This document shows, one piece after another, positions 16,453 to 25,831 of a stretch of DNA of 34,538 nucleotides (the stretch's first letter is position 1; each line of letters opens with the position of its first letter). The stretch comes from Deltaproteobacteria bacterium (GTDB lineage: Bacteria; Desulfobacterota; Syntrophia; Syntrophales; UBA5619). The stretch is from contig JAFGRP010000186.1 in the NCBI GenBank assembly GCA_016935075.1, forward strand, positions 1 through 34,538, given 5' to 3'. The position numbers were made by a program, and so were the translations under genes. Below the pieces are notes generated by a model that was given only the letters and a program-made list of their open reading frames with translations, ran no database searches and was not told the DNA's origin.

Positions 16453-16491
16453 CAGCTCATCCTTACGAATTTTGCCTGAAACTCGATAAAT

Positions 16492-16587
16492 TGTCATTCC
16501 TGTGCCGTATCAAGTACGGGATAAACTCCAGTAGCAATCCATTACGTTCAAGACCTTCTAGACATTCCCGCTTCCGCGAGAATGACA
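16492..16587. repeat. Short (~96 bp) inverted-repeat-ended element, MITE/REP-like
   Basis: Terminal TGTCATTC (16492-16499) and GAATGACA (16580-16587), internal cccgcttccgcgag. Lies between citE-like and holA. Confidence 0.5.
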
Positions 16588-16622
16588 AAAAGGGTAGATT
16601 TTCAAAGCTCTCGTCTTTTGTG

Positions 16623-18017
16623 TCAAGGGGATTTACAGACGGCGAGCAGGAAGCGCTCGATGAGGAGACGGGGCTCCTGTCCCGTGGACTTGAGCGCCAG
16701 ATCGATCCGGACCAGCATCTCCAGAAAGCCGGCCAGCTCGGAGCGGGTGAACCGGCCCGCGTTTTTCAGCGACTGATAGACGACGTACGGATGCTGCGAG
16801 ACAAGATCGATCTGCTCTTCCCCCTTGCCGGCCCCCGGCTTGAGGGAGGGATAAACCGTCTTCTGAAAACGGCCGTAATCCATGTTCGCGCTGAAACCCT
16901 TCAGACGCCCGGAGTCGATCAGGAGCTTTGCATGGAGGAGGAAACGGATCTCCTTCGTGATCATGGCCATGATCATCAGGGGGGGGCTCCCCTGATCGAG
17001 AAGATCTTTCATCGCCCGGAGGGCGGCCGCCAGGCTTCTTGCGGCGAGCGCCCCCGTCAGATCGAAAACGGTCTCCTCTTTCGTCCGGCCGACGACGGCT
17101 TCCACATCCGCCGCCTCGATGACCGCCTTATCCCCCGCATAGGCGACCAGTTTCTCGATCTCCCCGAGCGACTCCCGGAGGCTGAAGCCGGTCTTCCGCC
17201 CCAAGGCGTCCCAGGCGCCGGAGGAGAGCCGTTTTCCCCGGCCCTCCAGGAGCCCGGCGGCCATCTCCATCACCGCCTGCTGCTGCCTCGCCTCCCCCTT
17301 GATCTTTGTGAAGGTCAGGATACGCCCCGCGGATGAAACGGCCTTGAAGAGCCTTTTCCGCCGGTCCACCGTGGGGGCCGTCAGGATAAGGTGATTCCCC
17401 TCCGGCATCCCCCCGGCCAGGACCCGCTCCAGGCGGTCGGTCTCCTCCTCCGTCGTTTCCTGGACCGGAACGGCGCCGCGGCTCGCACAGAGATCGACCG
17501 CCCGGGGAAGCCAGGTCTCGCGGTCCCCGCCGCCGTCATCGGGAACGATTCTCCGCCAGGCGTCGTCATCGATCTTCCGCCAGCCGCCGTCCCTGAGGTC
17601 GTCCAACTGCATCCCCGTCAGCGTCAGGAATTGCATGAAATCCGCCGCCGCCCGGGCGGGATCCGGCTCGAGCCGCTCCCGGATCCGCACGATGAGGGAC
17701 GCAAGGAGGTTTTTCGACTGAAAAAGGCGGGTGTTCCGGACGACGACAACCTTGCGTCCGGGGAGAAGGGGCGGTGTGATCAGGGATTCACAGAGCGAGC
17801 CGACATCCTCATGCTCGCCGTCGGTCATAAAGAGATTGAGTTCGCGGTCCCGGGCGTCGGGGATCAGCGCCGCCGTGATTTTGTCGAGGCCGTCCCGGAG
17901 GCGGAACTCCTCTTCCCCATAGAGGAGATAGCAGGGAACGGCCTTCCCCCGCTTCAGCTCGGCAAGGACCGCTTCCAGGGAGGCGCCCCGGCCGGTATCG
18001 TCGTCGTGAAGAGCCAT
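16623..18017 (-). CDS. holA: DNA polymerase III subunit delta
   Basis: LLYGEEEFRLRDGLDKITAALIPD, GRKVVVVRNTRLFQSKN, LSSGAWDALGRKTGFSLRESLGEIEKLVAYAGDKAVIEAADVEAVVGRTKEETVFDLTGALAARS. Confidence 0.85.
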   Translation of the reverse strand: MALHDDDTGRGASLEAVLAELKRGKAVPCYLLYGEEEFRLRDGLDKITAALIPDARDRELNLFMTDGEHEDVGSLCESLITPPLLPGRKVVVVRNTRLFQSKNLLASLIVRIRERLEPDPARAAADFMQFLTLTGMQLDDLRDGGWRKIDDDAWRRIVPDDGGGDRETWLPRAVDLCASRGAVPVQETTEEETDRLERVLAGGMPEGNHLILTAPTVDRRKRLFKAVSSAGRILTFTKIKGEARQQQAVMEMAAGLLEGRGKRLSSGAWDALGRKTGFSLRESLGEIEKLVAYAGDKAVIEAADVEAVVGRTKEETVFDLTGALAARSLAAALRAMKDLLDQGSPPLMIMAMITKEIRFLLHAKLLIDSGRLKGFSANMDYGRFQKTVYPSLKPGAGKGEEQIDLVSQHPYVVYQSLKNAGRFTRSELAGFLEMLVRIDLALKSTGQEPRLLIERFLLAVCKSP

Positions 18018-18023
18018 TTTTTG

Positions 18024-18677
18024 CTATACGATGACGTACTTCTGGATCTGCCTCACGGCCTCGTCCGGATCGTCGAGGATCTGGAAGCGATCCAGATCCT
18101 CCGGAGAGATCCGGTGGTCGCGGAGCATTGTTTCGCGGAGCCAGTCGTAAAGGCCCTTCCAGTATTCGCTCCCCATGAGGATGACGGGAAAGCTCTTGAT
18201 CCTTTTGGTCTGGATGAGGGTCAGCGCCTCGAAGAGCTCGTCCATCGTCCCGAAGCCGCCGGGCAGGATCACATAGGCCACGGCATACTTGACGAACATC
18301 ACCTTCCGGATGAAGAAATACTTGTAGTCGATGCTGACGTTGGCGTAGGGATTGGGCTTCTGCTCCAGGGGCAGGCGGATGTTCATCCCCACCGACTGCC
18401 CGCCGGCCTCTGCAGCCCCCTTGTTGGCCGCCTCCATGATGCCGGGCCCGCCTCCGGTGATGACGCCGAAGCCCTTTTCGACGAGGCGCCGGGCAAGGAG
18501 CTCCGCCTGCTTATAACAGGGGTCGTCCGGCTTCGTTCTCGCCGAGCCGAAGATGCTCACGGCATGTTTCACTCCGGAGAGGGTTTCGATCGCATCGACA
18601 AACTCGGCCATGATCCGGAAGATGCGCCAGGATTCATCGATGGACAGGGCATCCACGACATACTGTTTCTCGTCCAT
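18024..18677 (-). CDS. LOG-family (lysine decarboxylase-like) protein
   Basis: Hallmarks GGGPGIMEAANKGA and LPGGFGTMDELFEALT. Start at MDEKQYVV (18677) preferred. Confidence 0.88.
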   Translation of the reverse strand: MDEKQYVVDALSIDESWRIFRIMAEFVDAIETLSGVKHAVSIFGSARTKPDDPCYKQAELLARRLVEKGFGVITGGGPGIMEAANKGAAEAGGQSVGMNIRLPLEQKPNPYANVSIDYKYFFIRKVMFVKYAVAYVILPGGFGTMDELFEALTLIQTKRIKSFPVILMGSEYWKGLYDWLRETMLRDHRISPEDLDRFQILDDPDEAVRQIQKYVIV

Positions 18678-18792
18678 GTGACACACCTCCACCCGGGGAA
18701 GGCGGCAGAAGAATACGCCGCGCCCCTCGCTCCCGAACCCTTCCCCTGTTCCCGGACCGCCCCAGCGATCCGTCCGACTGCATCCGTAACTT

Positions 18793-18984
18793 TTAAGAGA
18801 CCCTGCGCCGCTGAACCTTCGCCAGTCTCCGGCGGGCCTCGATGGTCTTCCTCTTCTTCTTCACGGAGGGTTTTTCATAGGCGCGCCGCAGTTTGAGTTC
18901 CTTGAACAGCCCGCTCTTGGAAAGCTTGTTCTTGAGAATCTTCAACGCCTTTTCCACATCATTGTCGAATACTTTGACTTCCAA
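18793..18984 (-). CDS. rpsU: 30S ribosomal protein S21
   Basis: MEVKVFDNDVEKALKILKNKLSKSGLFKELKLRRAYEKPSVKKKRKTIEARRRLAKVQRRRVS, canonical bS21. Confidence 0.95.
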   Translation of the reverse strand: MEVKVFDNDVEKALKILKNKLSKSGLFKELKLRRAYEKPSVKKKRKTIEARRRLAKVQRRRVS

Positions 18985-19011: not shown

Positions 19012-22000
19012 TTATGATTGGTATGATTTCACTTCCCGGTGATACTCCTGAATCGTCTTCACACGGCTTTCCCCCTTCAGCATCGCCTCGATGGCATTGA
19101 CTGCCGCCTGGGCGGCGGAGACCGTCGTGATCAGCGGCACGTTGTGGCGGACCGCCGTCGAACGGATGATGCCGGTATCCACCCGCGGCTTCTTGCCGCT
19201 GGAGGTGATGACGATCATGGCCACCTCCCGGTTCTTCATGAGATCGACGATGTTGGGCCTCCCCTCCGCCAGTTTGGGAAGGATTGTCACCGTCACGTCG
19301 TTGTTTTGGAGAACGGCGCCGGTCCCCGCCGTCGTCAGGATCTCAAAACCCAGATGTTCCAACTCCTTGGCGATGAAGACGATCTGCCGCTTGTCCTTGT
19401 TGGTGGCGCTGACGAACACCTTCCCCGATTTCGGCAGAAGCGTCCCCGCCGCGATCTGCGACTTGGCGTAGGCCCTTCCGAACGTGGTGTCGATCCCCAT
19501 CACCTCGCCGGTCGATTTCATCTCGGGCCCCAGGATCGCGTCCACCCCCGGGAACCGGGCAAAGGGAAAGACCGACTCCTTGATCGCCACGTGGCGGACC
19601 GCGATCTCCTTTGTGAAGTTCAGATCCTGGAGCGTCCGGCCGGCCATCACCTGCGTGGCCAGTTTGGCCAGGGACACTCCGGTCGCCTTGCTCACGAAGG
19701 GGATCGTCCGCGACGCGCGGGGGTTCACTTCCAGGACATAGACCACATCGTTCCGGATCGCATACTGGATGTTCATCAGCCCCCGGACCCGGAGTTCCCT
19801 GGCAAGGGCGTAGGTGTTCTCCGCGATCGTCTTCTGCAGCCTCGCATCCAGCGTGAAGGGAGGGATGACGGACGCGCTGTCCCCCGAATGGATCCCCGCC
19901 TCCTCGATGTGCTCCATGATCCCGCCGATGACGGTCGTCTCGCCGTCGGAGATGGCATCCACGTCGATCTCGATGGCATCCTCGAGAAACTTGTCGATCA
20001 GGATCGGATGCTCCGGCGAGACCCGGATCGCCTTCTTCATGAACTCCTCCAGGGCCTCGTCGTCATAGACGATCTCCATGGCCCTGCCGCCCAGCACGTA
20101 GGAGGGCCGGACAATGACCGGATAGCTGATCCGTCCGGCCACCTTTCTGGCCTCCTCGAACGAACGGGCCGTTCCGTTCTCCGGCTGGATGAGGTTCAGC
20201 TTCTTGAGAAGGACCTGGAACCGCTTGCGGTCCTCCGCCCGGTCGATGCTGTCGGGCGTGGTTCCCCAGATGGGGACCCCCGCCTTCTCCAGGGGCAAGG
20301 CAAGATTCAGCGGCGTCTGTCCGCCGAACTGGACGATCACCCCTTCCGGCTTCTCCCGTTCGACGATGTTCAGGACGTCCTCCCGGGTGAGCGGCTCGAA
20401 GTAGAGCTTGTCGGAGGTGTCGTAGTCGGTGCTGACCGTCTCCGGATTGGAGTTGACCATGATGCTCTCGTAGCCCATCTCCTTGAGGGCCAGTGAGGCG
20501 TGGACGCAGCAGTAGTCGAACTCGATCCCCTGTCCGATCCGGTTGGGGCCGCCGCCCAGAATCATCACCCTGGGCCTCCGGCTCCGGACGCTCTCCTCGA
20601 CCTTTTCATAGGTGGAATAATAGTAGGGCTTCTCGGCGGTGAACTCGCCGGCGCAGGTGTCGACCAGCTTGAAAACCGGGGAAATCCGCCGTTTCTTCCT
20701 CATCCGCCGGATCAGGGTCTCTTCCGCGCCGAGGATCCGGGCCAGTTGAACGTCGGAAAATCCGTATTCCTTGGCCTGTCGCAGCAGCGACCCGGAAAAT
20801 GCGTCGGCCCAGGCCCGGTGCTCCTTTTTCCCGCCCTGAAACCGGGCGTCCGTCAGCGTCTGCTCCAGGTCGAAAACCCCTTTCATGTCGGCCAGAAACC
20901 AGCGGTCGATTTTTGTGAGTTCGAAGATCTCGTCGATCGTCATCCCCGCCTGAAAGGCATAGCGGATGTAAAAAAAGCGCTCCGCGTTCGGGATGAGCAG
21001 CTTCTCCCGGATCTTCTCCGTGTCGGGAAGGGGATTCACATCCCTTCCGTCGGCGCCGAACCCGAAGCGCCCTGTCTCCAGGGAGCGGAGCCCCTTCTGG
21101 AACGCCTCCTTGAAGGTTCGCCCGATGGACATCGCCTCACCCACCGCCTTCATCGAGGTGTTGAGCGTCGGATCGGCCGTCGGAAACTTCTCGAAGGTGA
21201 AGCGGGCCACCTTGAAGACGCAGTAGTCGATCGTCGGTTCATAGAGGGCCGAGGTCTTCCCGGTGATATCGTTTTTCACCTCGTCGAGGGTGAATCCCAC
21301 GGCCAGCTTCGTCGCCACGCGGGCGATGGGGAAGCCCGTCGCCTTGGAGGCAAGGGCCGAACTCCGCGAGAGGCGCGGGTTGACCTCGATGATGACCACC
21401 TCGCCGTTGTCGGGATTCACGGCGAACTGGATGTTCACCCCGCCCCCGGTCACGTCGATCTTCCGGATGATCTTCCGGCAGAGGGCCGTCAGGCGGCCGT
21501 ATTCCCGGGCCGTCAGGGTCTGGGCGGGCGCCACGACGGCGCTGTCCCCGGTGTGGATCCCCATCGGATCGACGTTTTCCATCGAGGTGATGATGATCAC
21601 GTTGTCCGCGCAGTCCCGCATCACCTCGAACTCGATCTCCTTCCAGCCGAGGACGGACTGTTCCACGAGAACCTGGCCGACCGGGCTGAATTCGATGGCC
21701 TTGCCCAGGGATTCCCGGAGTTCCTCTTTGTTGTAGGCGATGGCGCCGCCGGTTCCGCCGAGAGTAAACGCCGGCCGGAGGATCAGCGGGAATCCGACCG
21801 CGAGGCCGATGGCCATCCCCTCCCCGACGGAGGTCGCGATGCCGCTCTGGGGAACGCCGATCCCGATCTCCTGCATCGCCGTCTTGAAGAGCTCCCGGTC
21901 CTCCGCCCGCGCGATCGCCTCGGCGGAGGCGCCCAGGACTTCGACGCCGTACTTTTCAAAGACCCCGGCCCGCGCCAGAAAAACCGCGGTGTTGAGACCG

Positions 22001-22281
22001 GTCTGGCCGCCGAGGGTAGGCAGGATCGCGTCGGGCCGCTCCCGGGCGATGATCTTCTCCACGAACTCCGGCGTGATCGGCTCGACGTAAGTGCGGTCGG
22101 CCATGCCCGGATCGGTCATGATCGTCGCCGGGTTTGAGTTGACGAGGATGACGAAGTAGCCCTCCTCCTTGAGGGCTTTGCACGCCTGGGAGCCCGAATA
22201 GTCGAACTCGCAGGCCTGTCCGATGATGATCGGACCCGACCCCACAATCAGTATCTTCTTCAAATCTTCCCGCTTCGGCAT
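19012..22281 (-). CDS. carB: Carbamoyl-phosphate synthase large subunit
   Basis: [41 protein letters not shown], second half [31 protein letters not shown]. Start 22281 (MPKRED) preferred over 22305. Confidence 0.95.
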
Positions 22282-22297
22282 GATATCGTTCCCGTCC

Positions 22298-22324
22298 GGG
22301 GACATGATGCGGCATCGTGTCCCC
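22298..22324. repeat. 27-bp near-perfect palindrome (copy 1)
   Basis: GGGGACATGATGCGGCATCGTGTCCCC, 13-bp arms with one mismatch, in the carA-carB junction. 25/27 identical to 22915-22941. Confidence 0.8.
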
Positions 22325-22326
22325 GT

Positions 22327-23424
22327 TTAACGCCGCCGCTCCATCCGGCGGATGAATTCCGCAAACGGCGCACCCGGCGCGCCGTCATCCGTAAACCCGG
22401 GGATGAACTGCACCCCGGCCGCCTCCAGCCCTTCCGCCGCGATGCCTTCGACGCTGCCGTCGTTCAGGTTCGCGTGTGAAACGCGGAAATCCGTCCCCGC
22501 AAGCGATCCGGCATCAATCACGAGGCGGTGGTTCTGGGTCGTGATCGCATCACGGCCGGTCGCCGTCTCCCGGACCGGATAATTGACGCCGTGGTGGCCG
22601 GTTTTCAGCGCCCCGATGCGGCCGCCCCCCGCCAGGGCGAGAAGCTGGCACCCCAGCGCCACACCGATCACGGGCAACTTCCCGAGGGCCTTCCGGATCT
22701 GCGCGGCCGTTTCCGCCAGATCCCGCGGATCCCCCGGCCCGTTGGAGACCAGGAGGCCTTCCGGCTCCAGGGCGCCGATCTCCTCCCAGGAGACCGTGAA
22801 GGGGACCCGGACCGTCTGGCAGCCGCCCGCTTCCAGCTGTGCGATGCAGCTCCGCCGGACGCCGAGATCCCAGACGACGACGCGGCGCCGCCCGTCATCC
22901 GCGAATCCGGAAGCGGGGACATGATGCCGCATCGTGTCTCCGCCGACCGCGTCGCGGATCAGTTCCGCGGCCGTTGGAACCGGGCAGGTCCGGATTTTTT
23001 CAAGCAACTGCGGGACCGGCAACGCGGCCGGGGCGACCACACCCCGCATCTCGCCGCGATTCCGCAGGCGCAGGGCAAGGGTCCGCGTATCCACCCCGTC
23101 CATCCCCACGACGCCCCGCTCCTTCATCCAATCCTCCAGAGAACCTTCCGCGCGCCAGTTGCTGACGGTCCGGCTCCGCTCCCGGACCAGGAGCGCCGAG
23201 GCCTGTGCGCGGCCGGACTCCCCATCCCCGGCGTTGACGCCGCAGTTGCCGATCAGGGGATAGGTCATGTTCACCAGCATCCCGCGGTTGTCGGGATCGG
23301 TCAACGTCTCCTGATACCCGACGACACCGTAATCGTTGTGGACCCAGCCGCAGACCTCCGCTTCCGCCCCGAACGACTCCCCTGCAAAAGAACTCCCGTC
23401 TTCCAATACCAGCATCATTTTCAT
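22327..23424 (-). CDS. carA: Carbamoyl-phosphate synthase small subunit with degenerate glutaminase active site
   Basis: MKMMLVLEDGSSFAGESFGAEAEVCG start; GPGDP, GHHGVNYPV, TTQNHRLV and NLNDGSVEG conserved. Nucleophile motif reads GVALGCQ instead of GxCxGxQ; VQFIPGF instead of VQFHPEA. Confidence 0.92.
   Translation of the reverse strand: MKMMLVLEDGSSFAGESFGAEAEVCGWVHNDYGVVGYQETLTDPDNRGMLVNMTYPLIGNCGVNAGDGESGRAQASALLVRERSRTVSNWRAEGSLEDWMKERGVVGMDGVDTRTLALRLRNRGEMRGVVAPAALPVPQLLEKIRTCPVPTAAELIRDAVGGDTMRHHVPASGFADDGRRRVVVWDLGVRRSCIAQLEAGGCQTVRVPFTVSWEEIGALEPEGLLVSNGPGDPRDLAETAAQIRKALGKLPVIGVALGCQLLALAGGGRIGALKTGHHGVNYPVRETATGRDAITTQNHRLVIDAGSLAGTDFRVSHANLNDGSVEGIAAEGLEAAGVQFIPGFTDDGAPGAPFAEFIRRMERRR
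22915..22941. repeat. 27-bp palindrome-related repeat (copy 2) inside carA coding sequence
   Basis: GGGGACATGATGCCGCATCGTGTCTCC, 25/27 matches to 22298-22324. Confidence 0.75.
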
Positions 23425-23540
23425 AAGCCGACCCGTCTTGAGATGAAAAACCGGCGCAAAAAAAGGGCAGTACGGCGTCTCGCTGATGGTTGCGTGCCGT
23501 AAACTACCCTGCATTGTCGCCTATATGTGGACCACGCTCC

Positions 23541-24605
23541 TTACTTTGAAAGAATGTCCTGTAACTCCCCTATAAATCTGCTGTTTTCTTCGCGGGTTCC
23601 CACCGTGACGCGCATGAAGTTTTGCATCGCCCCGGGGGCGTTGAAGTTCTTGATCAGGATGCCCCGCTCCATGAGTCTGCTATATACGCGATCCGCATCG
23701 AAATCGCAACCAAAAAAAATAAAATTTGCGTCGGTCGGCCGGGGATGGATTCCCGGGATCTTTTTCATTGCCGCGAAGAGCTCGCCGCGCCAGCGGCGGA
23801 TCTTCTCCGCCTGCTTCAGGAAGGTCTCCTCGTGGTCGAGATAGAATCCGGCGGCCGCCTGCGACAGGGCGTTCAGGTTGTAAGGAAGGCGCACCTTGTC
23901 AAGTTCGTGAACGAGCGCCGGGGGACCGATGAGGAAGCCGATCCGCATGGCGGCAAACCCCGCCTTGGAGAGGGTCCGGAGGATGACCAGGTTTTCATAC
24001 CGGCCGAGGAGCGGCAGGAAGGTCTGCCCGGAAAAATGAAAATAGGCCTCATCGACAACCACGATTCCCGGCGATTCCCGGAGGACCGCCTCGATCCGGT
24101 CGCGGCGGAAACAGTTGCCCGTCGGGTTGTTGGGCCAGGCGAGAAAGGTCAGGGCGGGGGGGTGCGCTGCGATCCGCTCCCGCATGGCCGCCAGATCGAG
24201 ATCGAACTCCCCGTCCAGCGGAACCGCTGCGACCCGGCATCCGGTGTTTTGGGCCGTGATCCGGTACATCGCAAAGGTGGGAATCGGGATCATGACCTCC
24301 GCACCGGGCCGGGCGACGGCCGTGCAGAGAATCTGGATCAGTTCATCCGACCCGTTGCCGAGGACGACCTGGTCCCCCCCGACGCCGAAGACCTTCGCGA
24401 AGCGGGCAGTCAGTGCAGGGGAACCGGCCTCGGGATAACGGTTCAGGGAAACGGAGGCGAGCCGGGACACAAACCGCTTGCGGAGAGGTCCGGGAATCGC
24501 CAGCGGATTTTCGTTGGCATCCAGTTTGACCGGGCAGGCGGCATGCTCCACCCCATAGGCCTTCTGGGCAAGCACCTCCTCTTTGATCAAAGACCGGATA
24601 TCCAT
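23541..24605 (-). CDS. hisC: Histidinol-phosphate aminotransferase
   Basis: VKLDANENPLAIPGPLRKRF...LNRYPEAG, GNGSDELIQIL, PNNPTGN, VVDEAYFHFSG, LRTLSKAGFAAMRIGFLIG. Confidence 0.92.
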   Translation of the reverse strand: MDIRSLIKEEVLAQKAYGVEHAACPVKLDANENPLAIPGPLRKRFVSRLASVSLNRYPEAGSPALTARFAKVFGVGGDQVVLGNGSDELIQILCTAVARPGAEVMIPIPTFAMYRITAQNTGCRVAAVPLDGEFDLDLAAMRERIAAHPPALTFLAWPNNPTGNCFRRDRIEAVLRESPGIVVVDEAYFHFSGQTFLPLLGRYENLVILRTLSKAGFAAMRIGFLIGPPALVHELDKVRLPYNLNALSQAAAGFYLDHEETFLKQAEKIRRWRGELFAAMKKIPGIHPRPTDANFIFFGCDFDADRVYSRLMERGILIKNFNAPGAMQNFMRVTVGTREENSRFIGELQDILSK

Positions 24606-25426
24606 CCGCCCTTTCCCCCTTCCCTGTTCCAGCCCTCGTTGCCGTATTTCTTCACCATCAATTCGCCCCTGATCCCCTCCTCCTCCGGCGTCAACAACCC
24701 TTCCCGGAACCGGACGCCCAGCACGCTTTCGAACCCCTCCCGGATGGCCCGGCAGAGCCTTTCCTCACCGACGGTCTCCCCCGCCTGCTCCCCGACGGAG
24801 GTAATCGCATTCCGCAGCAGACCGGCATCCCTTTCCCTGTCCCGGTGGGGCAGCATGAAGGCGCAGGTCCGGAGGGGATCAAATGCCATCAGCAGCGATC
24901 CATGCTGCAGGAATGCGCCGTGGGATCGCATCTGCGCGGATCCGCAAATCTTCCGTCCGCCGACGAGCAGCTCGTAGCGGGAGAGGGAGGAAAAGCACGA
25001 GGAACAAAGCGTCCCGTCCGGCGCTTGCCTTCCGCCCGTCTCCATCTCCGCCCGGATGCCGATTTCGGCCAGCCCCCGGGCAATGCAACCACTGATCGCG
25101 CGATAGGTCTTCAGGATATCCGGAGGGAAGAGGGGCGAATCCGCGCCGGCGATCACGGCATAAGTCAGTTCTTGTTCATGCAGGACGGCCTTCCCGCCCG
25201 TCGGACGCCGGACGATCTCCACACCGAATTTCCGGCAGGCCTCGCCGTCGACCTCTTTTTCATAATCCTGAAAGCAGCCGATAGAAAGGGCGGGAACCCG
25301 CCAGCCGTAGAAACGGAGCGTCGGAGGCGCCTTTTTACGGATGACCGCCCGGAACAGGGCCTCATCGACGGCCATGTTCTCCGCGGCGCCGGCCTTTTGG
25401 AAAGGAAGAATTCTCCATGCCTCCAC
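24587..25426 (-). CDS. Lipoate/octanoate transferase, LipM/LplA family
   Basis: PTLRFYGWRVPALSIGCFQDYEKEV, VRRPTGGKAVLHEQELTYAV, and SSCFSSLSRYELLVGGRKICGSAQMRSHGAFLQHGSLL, which carries a LipM-like Cys. Confidence 0.85.
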   Translation of the reverse strand: MEAWRILPFQKAGAAENMAVDEALFRAVIRKKAPPTLRFYGWRVPALSIGCFQDYEKEVDGEACRKFGVEIVRRPTGGKAVLHEQELTYAVIAGADSPLFPPDILKTYRAISGCIARGLAEIGIRAEMETGGRQAPDGTLCSSCFSSLSRYELLVGGRKICGSAQMRSHGAFLQHGSLLMAFDPLRTCAFMLPHRDRERDAGLLRNAITSVGEQAGETVGEERLCRAIREGFESVLGVRFREGLLTPEEEGIRGELMVKKYGNEGWNREGGKGGWISGL

Positions 25427-25432
25427 GGCGGG

Positions 25433-25831
25433 TCAATCGACCTCCGTTTCCTGAATCAGGAACTCCTGATAGCCCCTCGCATCCAGGAGATCGTCCAACT
25501 CTGCCGGATCATCTAGGTTCACGATGATCATCCACCCCGTTTCGTTGGGATCGCTGTTGATGACCCCGATCTCATCCGTGAGGTCCTCGTTGACGCTGAT
25601 GACCACCCCGCTGACCGGCGAGATGAGTTCGACCGCCGCCTTCGCCGATTCGATGGTGCCGAACGGCTCATCCCGTTCCACATAGGAATCGGTCTCGGGA
25701 AGATCCAGCGACAGGATCTCTCCCAGTTTCTCCTGGGCATGGTCCGTGATCCCGATGGTGGCCAGATCGTCCTCCACCCGCACCCAGACATGTTCCCGAC
25801 TGTACAGAAGATCATCCGGAATTGATTTCAT
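25433..25831 (-). CDS. gcvH: Glycine cleavage system H protein
   Basis: YSREHVWVRVEDDLATIGITDHAQEKLGEILSLDLPE, lipoyl-Lys site IESAKAAVELISPVSG. Confidence 0.93.
   Translation of the reverse strand: MKSIPDDLLYSREHVWVRVEDDLATIGITDHAQEKLGEILSLDLPETDSYVERDEPFGTIESAKAAVELISPVSGVVISVNEDLTDEIGVINSDPNETGWMIIVNLDDPAELDDLLDARGYQEFLIQETEVD

Follow-up and report, generated by a model that had tools for sequence, protein, structure and literature searches.

A clade of carbamoyl-phosphate synthetase small subunits lacking the glutaminase triad, part of a probably ammonia-dependent bacterial enzyme

The window considered here, that is, the whole 34,538-nucleotide stretch of DNA that was analysed, comes from a MAG of the Syntrophia-type Desulfobacterota that is 90.7% complete with 7.9% contamination; it is labelled G000 below, with the MAGs of its relatives bearing other G-numbers and their loci L-numbers. 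The window contains adjacent genes for the two subunits of a carbamoyl-phosphate synthetase (CPS), here termed carA* and carB*, within a block of genes on the minus strand:

25433..25831, minus strand: gcvH (profile search and neighbourhood comparison)
24587..25426, minus strand: lplA-like lipoate-protein ligase (profile search and neighbourhood comparison)
23541..24605, minus strand: hisC-like aminotransferase, the upstream neighbour in the conserved block (profile search and neighbourhood comparison)
23458..23509, minus strand: GC-rich hairpin and a run of seven T in the gap from hisC to carA*, shared by relatives whether or not they have carA*B*
22327..23424, minus strand: carA*, a CarA paralogue of 365 aa without the catalytic triad (profile search and AlphaFold2)
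23290..23292, minus strand: Asp45, at the position of the glutamine-binding residue Ser47 of E. coli CarA; 7/7 CarA* have Asp here and 112/113 others have Ser (alignment)
22657..22659, minus strand: GCG codon, giving Ala where E. coli CarA has its nucleophile Cys269 (translation and alignment)
22396..22404, minus strand: Ile-Pro-Gly replacing the catalytic His-Pro-Glu (His353, Glu355) (translation and alignment)
19012..22305, minus strand: carB*, full-length CPS large subunit, with all the catalytic residues checked being kept (profile search and residue comparison)
21586..21588, minus strand: Thr in CarB* aligned with E. coli Cys232, the ammonia-tunnel gate (Cys648 of CPS1, PMC4655335) (alignment)
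21487..21489, minus strand: Thr in CarB* aligned with E. coli Arg265 (alignment)
18793..18984, minus strand: rpsU, ribosomal protein S21 with a TTG start, downstream of carB* (sequence reading)
18024..18692, minus strand: LOG/TIGR00730-type Rossmann protein
16623..18017, minus strand: holA, DNA polymerase III delta

The likely start of carA* is the ATG at 23424, because the relatives align from this position and the longer reading frame, which extends to 23514, enters the hairpin and T-run; the true start of carB* is probably the ATG at 22281. The carA* start follows the hairpin and T-run by about 35 nt; in relatives without the pair, these stand before rpsU. An Rfam search of the region before carA* returned nothing meaningful, and its folding z-score was weak (-1.6); hence, a riboswitch or other known RNA was rejected. 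Two plus-strand reading frames, 17391-18896 (+) and 16491-17336 (+), lie opposite holA and the LOG gene; the former matches no family in Pfam or NCBIfam and the latter none in Pfam, and both resemble spurious antisense frames caused by high GC.

Translation of 22327-23424 (-) bears out the claim of an earlier note, made from the sequence alone, that this CarA has lost its entire triad: the nucleophile motif reads GVALGCQ, with the Ala codon GCG at 22659-22657, and the second motif VQFIPGF, with Ile-Pro-Gly at 22404-22396. The accompanying signatures that it listed (GPGDP, GHHGVNYPV, TTQNHRLV, and NLNDGSVEG) are likewise present, the carA* frame is unbroken, and the carB at 19012-22305 is full-length. 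Both Pfam CarA domains are recognised in CarA*, and the AlphaFold2 model of the window protein (pLDDT 91.4) most closely resembles the solved structures of E. coli CarA (TM-score 0.90 to 1jdb_C) and of the glutaminase-like part of human CPS1. Sequence and predicted structure thus combine a lost nucleophile (Cys to Ala) with a retained CarA fold, in the manner of CPS I. The window CarA* scores 315.4 bits against TIGR01368, the NCBIfam profile of the ‘glutamine-hydrolyzing’ small subunit, and so passes its cut-off of 307.35 bits with A-I-G in place of the Cys-His-Glu triad that goes with membership; those of G027 and G026 fall below it, at 304.7 and 303.3 bits. This sets a trap for mis-annotation, as automatic annotation would label the window protein active.

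Alignment with related CarA sequences showed that six relatives among 61 related genomes share the triad loss, namely G008 (90%), G027, G024, G058, G026, and G044, none of the seven CarA* having a complete triad. These 7 MAGs span four families of a single class (Syntrophia-type Desulfobacterota), and their CarA* proteins form one clade in the tree (SH-aLRT 100). A class-wide search of 155 genomes yielded no further CarA*, and one scan of an 85k-species contig set found it only in the genomes already known. Among about 122 distinct CarA sequences in the fetched loci, the Cys, His, and Glu are kept in 112; those without them comprise the window gene, the six relatives, and three unrelated cases, with one truncated sequence among the rest. 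Two Clostridia-type MAGs encode CarA proteins with GIGLGHN/VQFEP (L095:8001-9077) and GIGLGHE/VQFYP (L140:8001-8996); their triad loss is independent of the CarA* clade, and the CarB adjoining the former has both Cys232 and Arg265. A further CarA, at L167 of G140, has Cys replaced by Tyr with His and Glu kept; it is nested among intact copies, and this single change could be an error.

Within the clade, the catalytic His is absent in 7/7 and the Cys in 6/7 (A, A, A, S, S, G), with the CarA* at L012 still having it. Glu occurs at His+2 in 0/7, this loss being the least clean of the three, since a 4-residue insertion after VQF-x-P is followed in the alignment by acidic residues nearby, off His+2. 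Of 69 E. coli positions that are at least 97% conserved in a reference set of 113 ordinary CarA, 43 are kept in all CarA* and 11 are lost in all, the latter including His353, Pro360 (tunnel loop), Ser47, Tyr48, and Glu29 (E. coli numbering). The last three are replaced uniformly (Ser47 by Asp, Tyr48 by Asn, and Glu29 by Trp, each in 7/7), with Ser, Tyr, and Glu in the others, and the alignment also reveals that Pro360-His361-Asp362 is missing through deletion of the PGPHD loop. In the glutamine pocket, then, Ser47 has become Asp, with Gly241, Gly243, Leu270, Gln273, and Asn311 mostly kept (Leu270 and Gln273 are retained), and the motifs NMTYPL and GYQExLTDPDN are strictly conserved in CarA*. 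The invariance of the replacement residues argues against free decay.

We consider it fairly probable, from sequence comparisons, that CarA*B* is a bacterial CPS that depends on ammonia and in which CarA* has a structural or regulatory role. CarB* would phosphorylate bicarbonate, take free NH3, and phosphorylate the resulting carbamate as usual, with CarA* hydrolysing no glutamine and staying bound to stabilise or regulate CarB*; the old glutaminase-to-synthase tunnel would be abandoned, and NH3 would come in by another route. Here, we infer NH3 as the donor in vivo, its entry route, the CarA*-CarB* complex, and the role of CarA*. When the tunnel of E. coli CPS is blocked or perforated, glutamine use is lost and the use of external NH3 is kept (PMC4655335). 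Against this reading, the E. coli enzyme requires very high concentrations of NH3 when this is the donor (PMC6245113). The earlier note had likewise proposed a CPS I-like loss of the glutaminase with CarA retained. This has gained from the existence of the clade, the purifying selection on carA*, the changes at the tunnel gate and wall in CarB*, and the genomes with CarA*B* as their sole CPS (the last three are considered below). Its picture of CarA as a kept structural subunit has to be modified: CarA* is not an unchanged scaffold, for Trp29, Asp47, and Asn48 are invariant in the old pocket region. These pocket residues, which a pure scaffold would leave unexplained, and the Cys of the L012 protein count against the ammonia-dependent reading.

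Such residues might mean that the glutamine pocket of CarA* was rebuilt for another small molecule, making it a sensor for a CarB* with NH3 as its substrate, or that an amine other than NH3 is used. The 7/7 invariance of Trp29, Asp47, and Asn48 and the strict conservation of the two motifs speak for this; against it, identical residues could merely close the pocket, the rest of CarA* drifts fast, and no ligand is known. We regard this as unlikely, though a repurposed pocket is possible and would fit the ammonia-dependent reading.

The ammonia-dependent reading draws further on the partner subunit. CarB* passes TIGR01369 (1483 vs 1027 bits), keeps the catalytic Arg, Glu, Asn, and His of the two ATP-grasp halves, and on residue comparison retains most ornithine and UMP/IMP contacts; in the tree, it forms a clade (support 100) apart from canonical CarB. 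A set of 86 other CarB sequences has 268 positions with a conservation of at least 95%, of which just 8 are lost in all eight CarB*: T31, C232, R265, V297, V304, F348, P360, and E550. All eight lie in the half of CarB to which ammonia is delivered, within the carboxyphosphate or oligomerisation parts, which contact the small subunit (PMC6245113), and the chance of their all falling there is ~0.016 by a hand calculation that ignores relatedness. Position 265 is Arg in 86/86 other CarB and Thr or Val in 8/8 CarB*. We take Arg265 of E. coli CarB to be an ammonia-tunnel wall residue near Pro360 and His361 of CarA; CarA* is without these two residues, and the counterparts of Arg265 are changed in CarB*. 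As for the gate, comprising Cys648, Ala667, and Ala729 in CPS1 (PMC4655335), its alteration in E. coli CPS harmed glutamine-dependent and free-NH3 activity alike (PMC4655335), so that C232T could be harmful or neutral. The two genes are adjacent wherever both are readable. The eighth CarB*, in G022, represents a fifth family beyond the four with CarA* and lies at a contig edge; the 104 nt preceding it contain no recognisable CarA* frame.

A search for a second carA found a canonical one in the same genome, on G000:C164 (GICLGHQ/VQYHPEA), in a glnA-carA-guaA-carB cluster whose CarB is a fragment at the contig edge. The base composition of this contig is somewhat unlike that of the window, but its CarA is 93% identical to the canonical CarA of G008 and it is therefore probably no binning contaminant. 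Hence, in G000, CarA*B* would be a second, specialised CPS, and the ammonia-dependent reading does not extend to the organism as a whole, which is probably not ammonia-restricted given this canonical glutamine-type CarA and CarB fragment. Canonical CarA is also found in G008, G024, G027, and G058; contamination as the source of the G058 contig was rejected as its composition matches that of the CarA* contig, and G058 is treated as having both. Elsewhere in G000, an allantoinase-like protein, three transcarbamoylase-family genes, and a carbamate kinase are clustered (L350, G000:C171:14000-33900), suggesting by their gene content ureide/purine breakdown to carbamoyl phosphate and ATP; the other seven CarB* genomes are without these extra transcarbamoylase-family matches.

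The situation is different in G026 (98% complete, 3% contamination) and G044 (75% complete), where CarA*B* supplied the only CarA and CarB found by profile searches. In both, no class I GATase domain scores above threshold except CarA* itself, and GMP synthase is matched only by a C-terminal half, 320 residues long and devoid of the glutaminase (loci for the glutaminase-less observations are L319:9626-10588, L345:2358-3320, and L340:2287-3249). Transcarbamoylase-family genes number two in G026 and one in G044. Provided that these MAGs are correct, carbamoyl phosphate in both must come from CarA*B* with no functional class I glutaminase to help. As all CarA* genomes are MAGs, the absence of a canonical CPS from these two could be a gap, and the missing class I glutaminases could reflect either lineage-wide loss or assembly gaps. 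No CTP synthase N-domain was found in either genome, an oddity that calls for caution about the assemblies or the lineage.

These distributions also bear on the alternative that CarB* borrows the canonical CarA, with CarA* being a competing decoy or brake that tunes a glutamine-dependent CPS. A canonical CarA is available in five of the genomes (G000, G008, G024, G027, and G058), and CarB* retains A251, A314, and most tunnel residues. However, none was found in G026 and G044, and CarB* lacks two residues, Arg265 and Cys232, that never vary among the compared CarB; both points make sharing of CarA in trans less likely. The constant company of carA* and carB* also speaks against it, and we judge it quite improbable.

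The conserved gene order is gcvH-lplA-hisC-[carA*-carB*]-rpsU-LOG-holA, with the pair in the same slot in four families and hisC missing or degenerate in some CarA* members; in 40 relatives examined, the block occurs without carA*-carB*. In G013, a stretch 84% identical to the final 32 codons of CarB* survives (L239:1238-1333) in the otherwise empty slot, which implies that an ancestor had the pair and that it was then deleted. On this sequence remnant, we conclude that the slot is ancestral and that the pair was deleted in many relatives. A protein-level search limited to the empty slots gave no matches, missing the G013 tail itself, and is therefore given no weight.

Where it is retained, carA* is, by codon comparison, under purifying selection: dN/dS between the window and G008 is 0.23 for carA*, 0.11 for carB*, 0.27 for hisC, 0.20 for gcvH, and 0.30 for holA. 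In comparisons of more distant genomes, identity is 50-56% for CarA*, 67-76% for canonical CarA, and 82-85% for CarB*; CarA* thus drifts faster than canonical CarA while CarB* stays high, indicating that the glutaminase came under weaker constraint and the synthase did not. The lost triad, this faster divergence, and the G022 CarB* with no CarA* frame before it might favour a decaying relic hitch-hiking in the carB operon; we nevertheless reject a pseudogene as very unlikely, for the reading frames are unbroken in seven genomes of four families, including six independent relatives, with conserved fold, constrained dN/dS, and the 43 of 69 near-invariant positions kept. A sequencing or assembly error, conceivable for a single MAG of this completeness and contamination, is practically eliminated by the recurrence of the same losses in six other assemblies.

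A parallel to the ammonia-dependent CarA*B* may exist in the same class as orphan CarB proteins (L071-L076, L078; e.g. L071:8436-11636 -), which are 52-55% identical to CarB* and have no neighbouring CarA. Position 265 is Gln in 7/7 of those read; they share four more changed positions with CarB* (V304, F348, P360, and E550) and have lost 28 near-invariant positions in all. The eight CarB* genomes have no orphan CarB (0/8), and it is found in 42 of the remaining 53 of the 61 genomes (Fisher 2.6e-5 for this complementarity, from a hand-compiled table uncorrected for relatedness). The pattern offers a hint that orphan CarB and CarA*B* solve the same task, and the former may be a stand-alone ammonia-type CPS. 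More speculatively, and with low confidence, one may picture CarA* as the regulatory subunit of a dedicated ammonia-type CPS, its dead site rebuilt as a sensor pocket around Trp29, Asp47, and Asn48, with the lineage having kept CarA*B* or orphan CarB interchangeably and at least one genus (G026, G044) having shed its class I glutaminases to aminate from free ammonia.

The enzyme family is a known one, and the triad-less CarA* is a new variant within CPS; a literature search with partial coverage found no report of a triad-less bacterial CarA. All CPS types save the vertebrate CPS I have been stated to use glutamine (PMC4655335), and glutamine has, by extension, been considered the relevant donor for bacterial CPSs generally (PMC6245113). 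Like E. coli CarAB (1JDB/1C30), CarA*B* has two subunits encoded by adjacent genes, the CarA fold, and the catalytic, ornithine, and most UMP residues of CarB; unlike it, CarA* is without the triad and the PGPHD loop and has Ser47 changed to Asp, and CarB* has C232T and R265T/V. The orphan CarB of Syntrophia-class genomes resembles CarB* in being a second CarB beside canonical CarAB with Arg265 lost, and differs in having no adjacent CarA, a long-branched clade of its own, and the 28 lost near-invariant positions. The carbamate-kinase-like synthesis of carbamoyl phosphate in Pyrococcus (PMC6245113) shares the ammonia donor, the enzyme being unrelated.

The closest likeness is with tetrapod CPS I (human CPS1, 5DOT), which keeps a glutaminase-like part without the catalytic Cys next to an intact synthase and uses free NH3 (PMC4655335), as we infer CarA*B* to do. 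CarA*B* is thus likely to correspond, in bacteria, to the ammonia-only enzyme at the entry to the mammalian urea cycle; as a conserved, glutaminase-less CarAB, it would be an independent, two-subunit equivalent. The analogy drawn in the earlier note does not extend to the route of the loss. In human CPS1, glutamine use was lost via Cys to Ser, and the tunnel is blocked at Gly293 by Gln, with Cys648 at the gate unchanged (PMC4655335); the Gln-binding pair is usually missing from CPS I (PMC7657897). CarA*, in contrast, retains Leu270 and Gln273 and has lost all three triad residues, and the CarB* gate is changed. CPS I also requires N-acetylglutamate. CarB* mostly keeps the E. coli-type ornithine and UMP residues. 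Finally, CPS I is one fused chain, whereas carA* and carB* are separate genes, and their separable proteins allow one to ask what purpose a dead glutaminase subunit serves.
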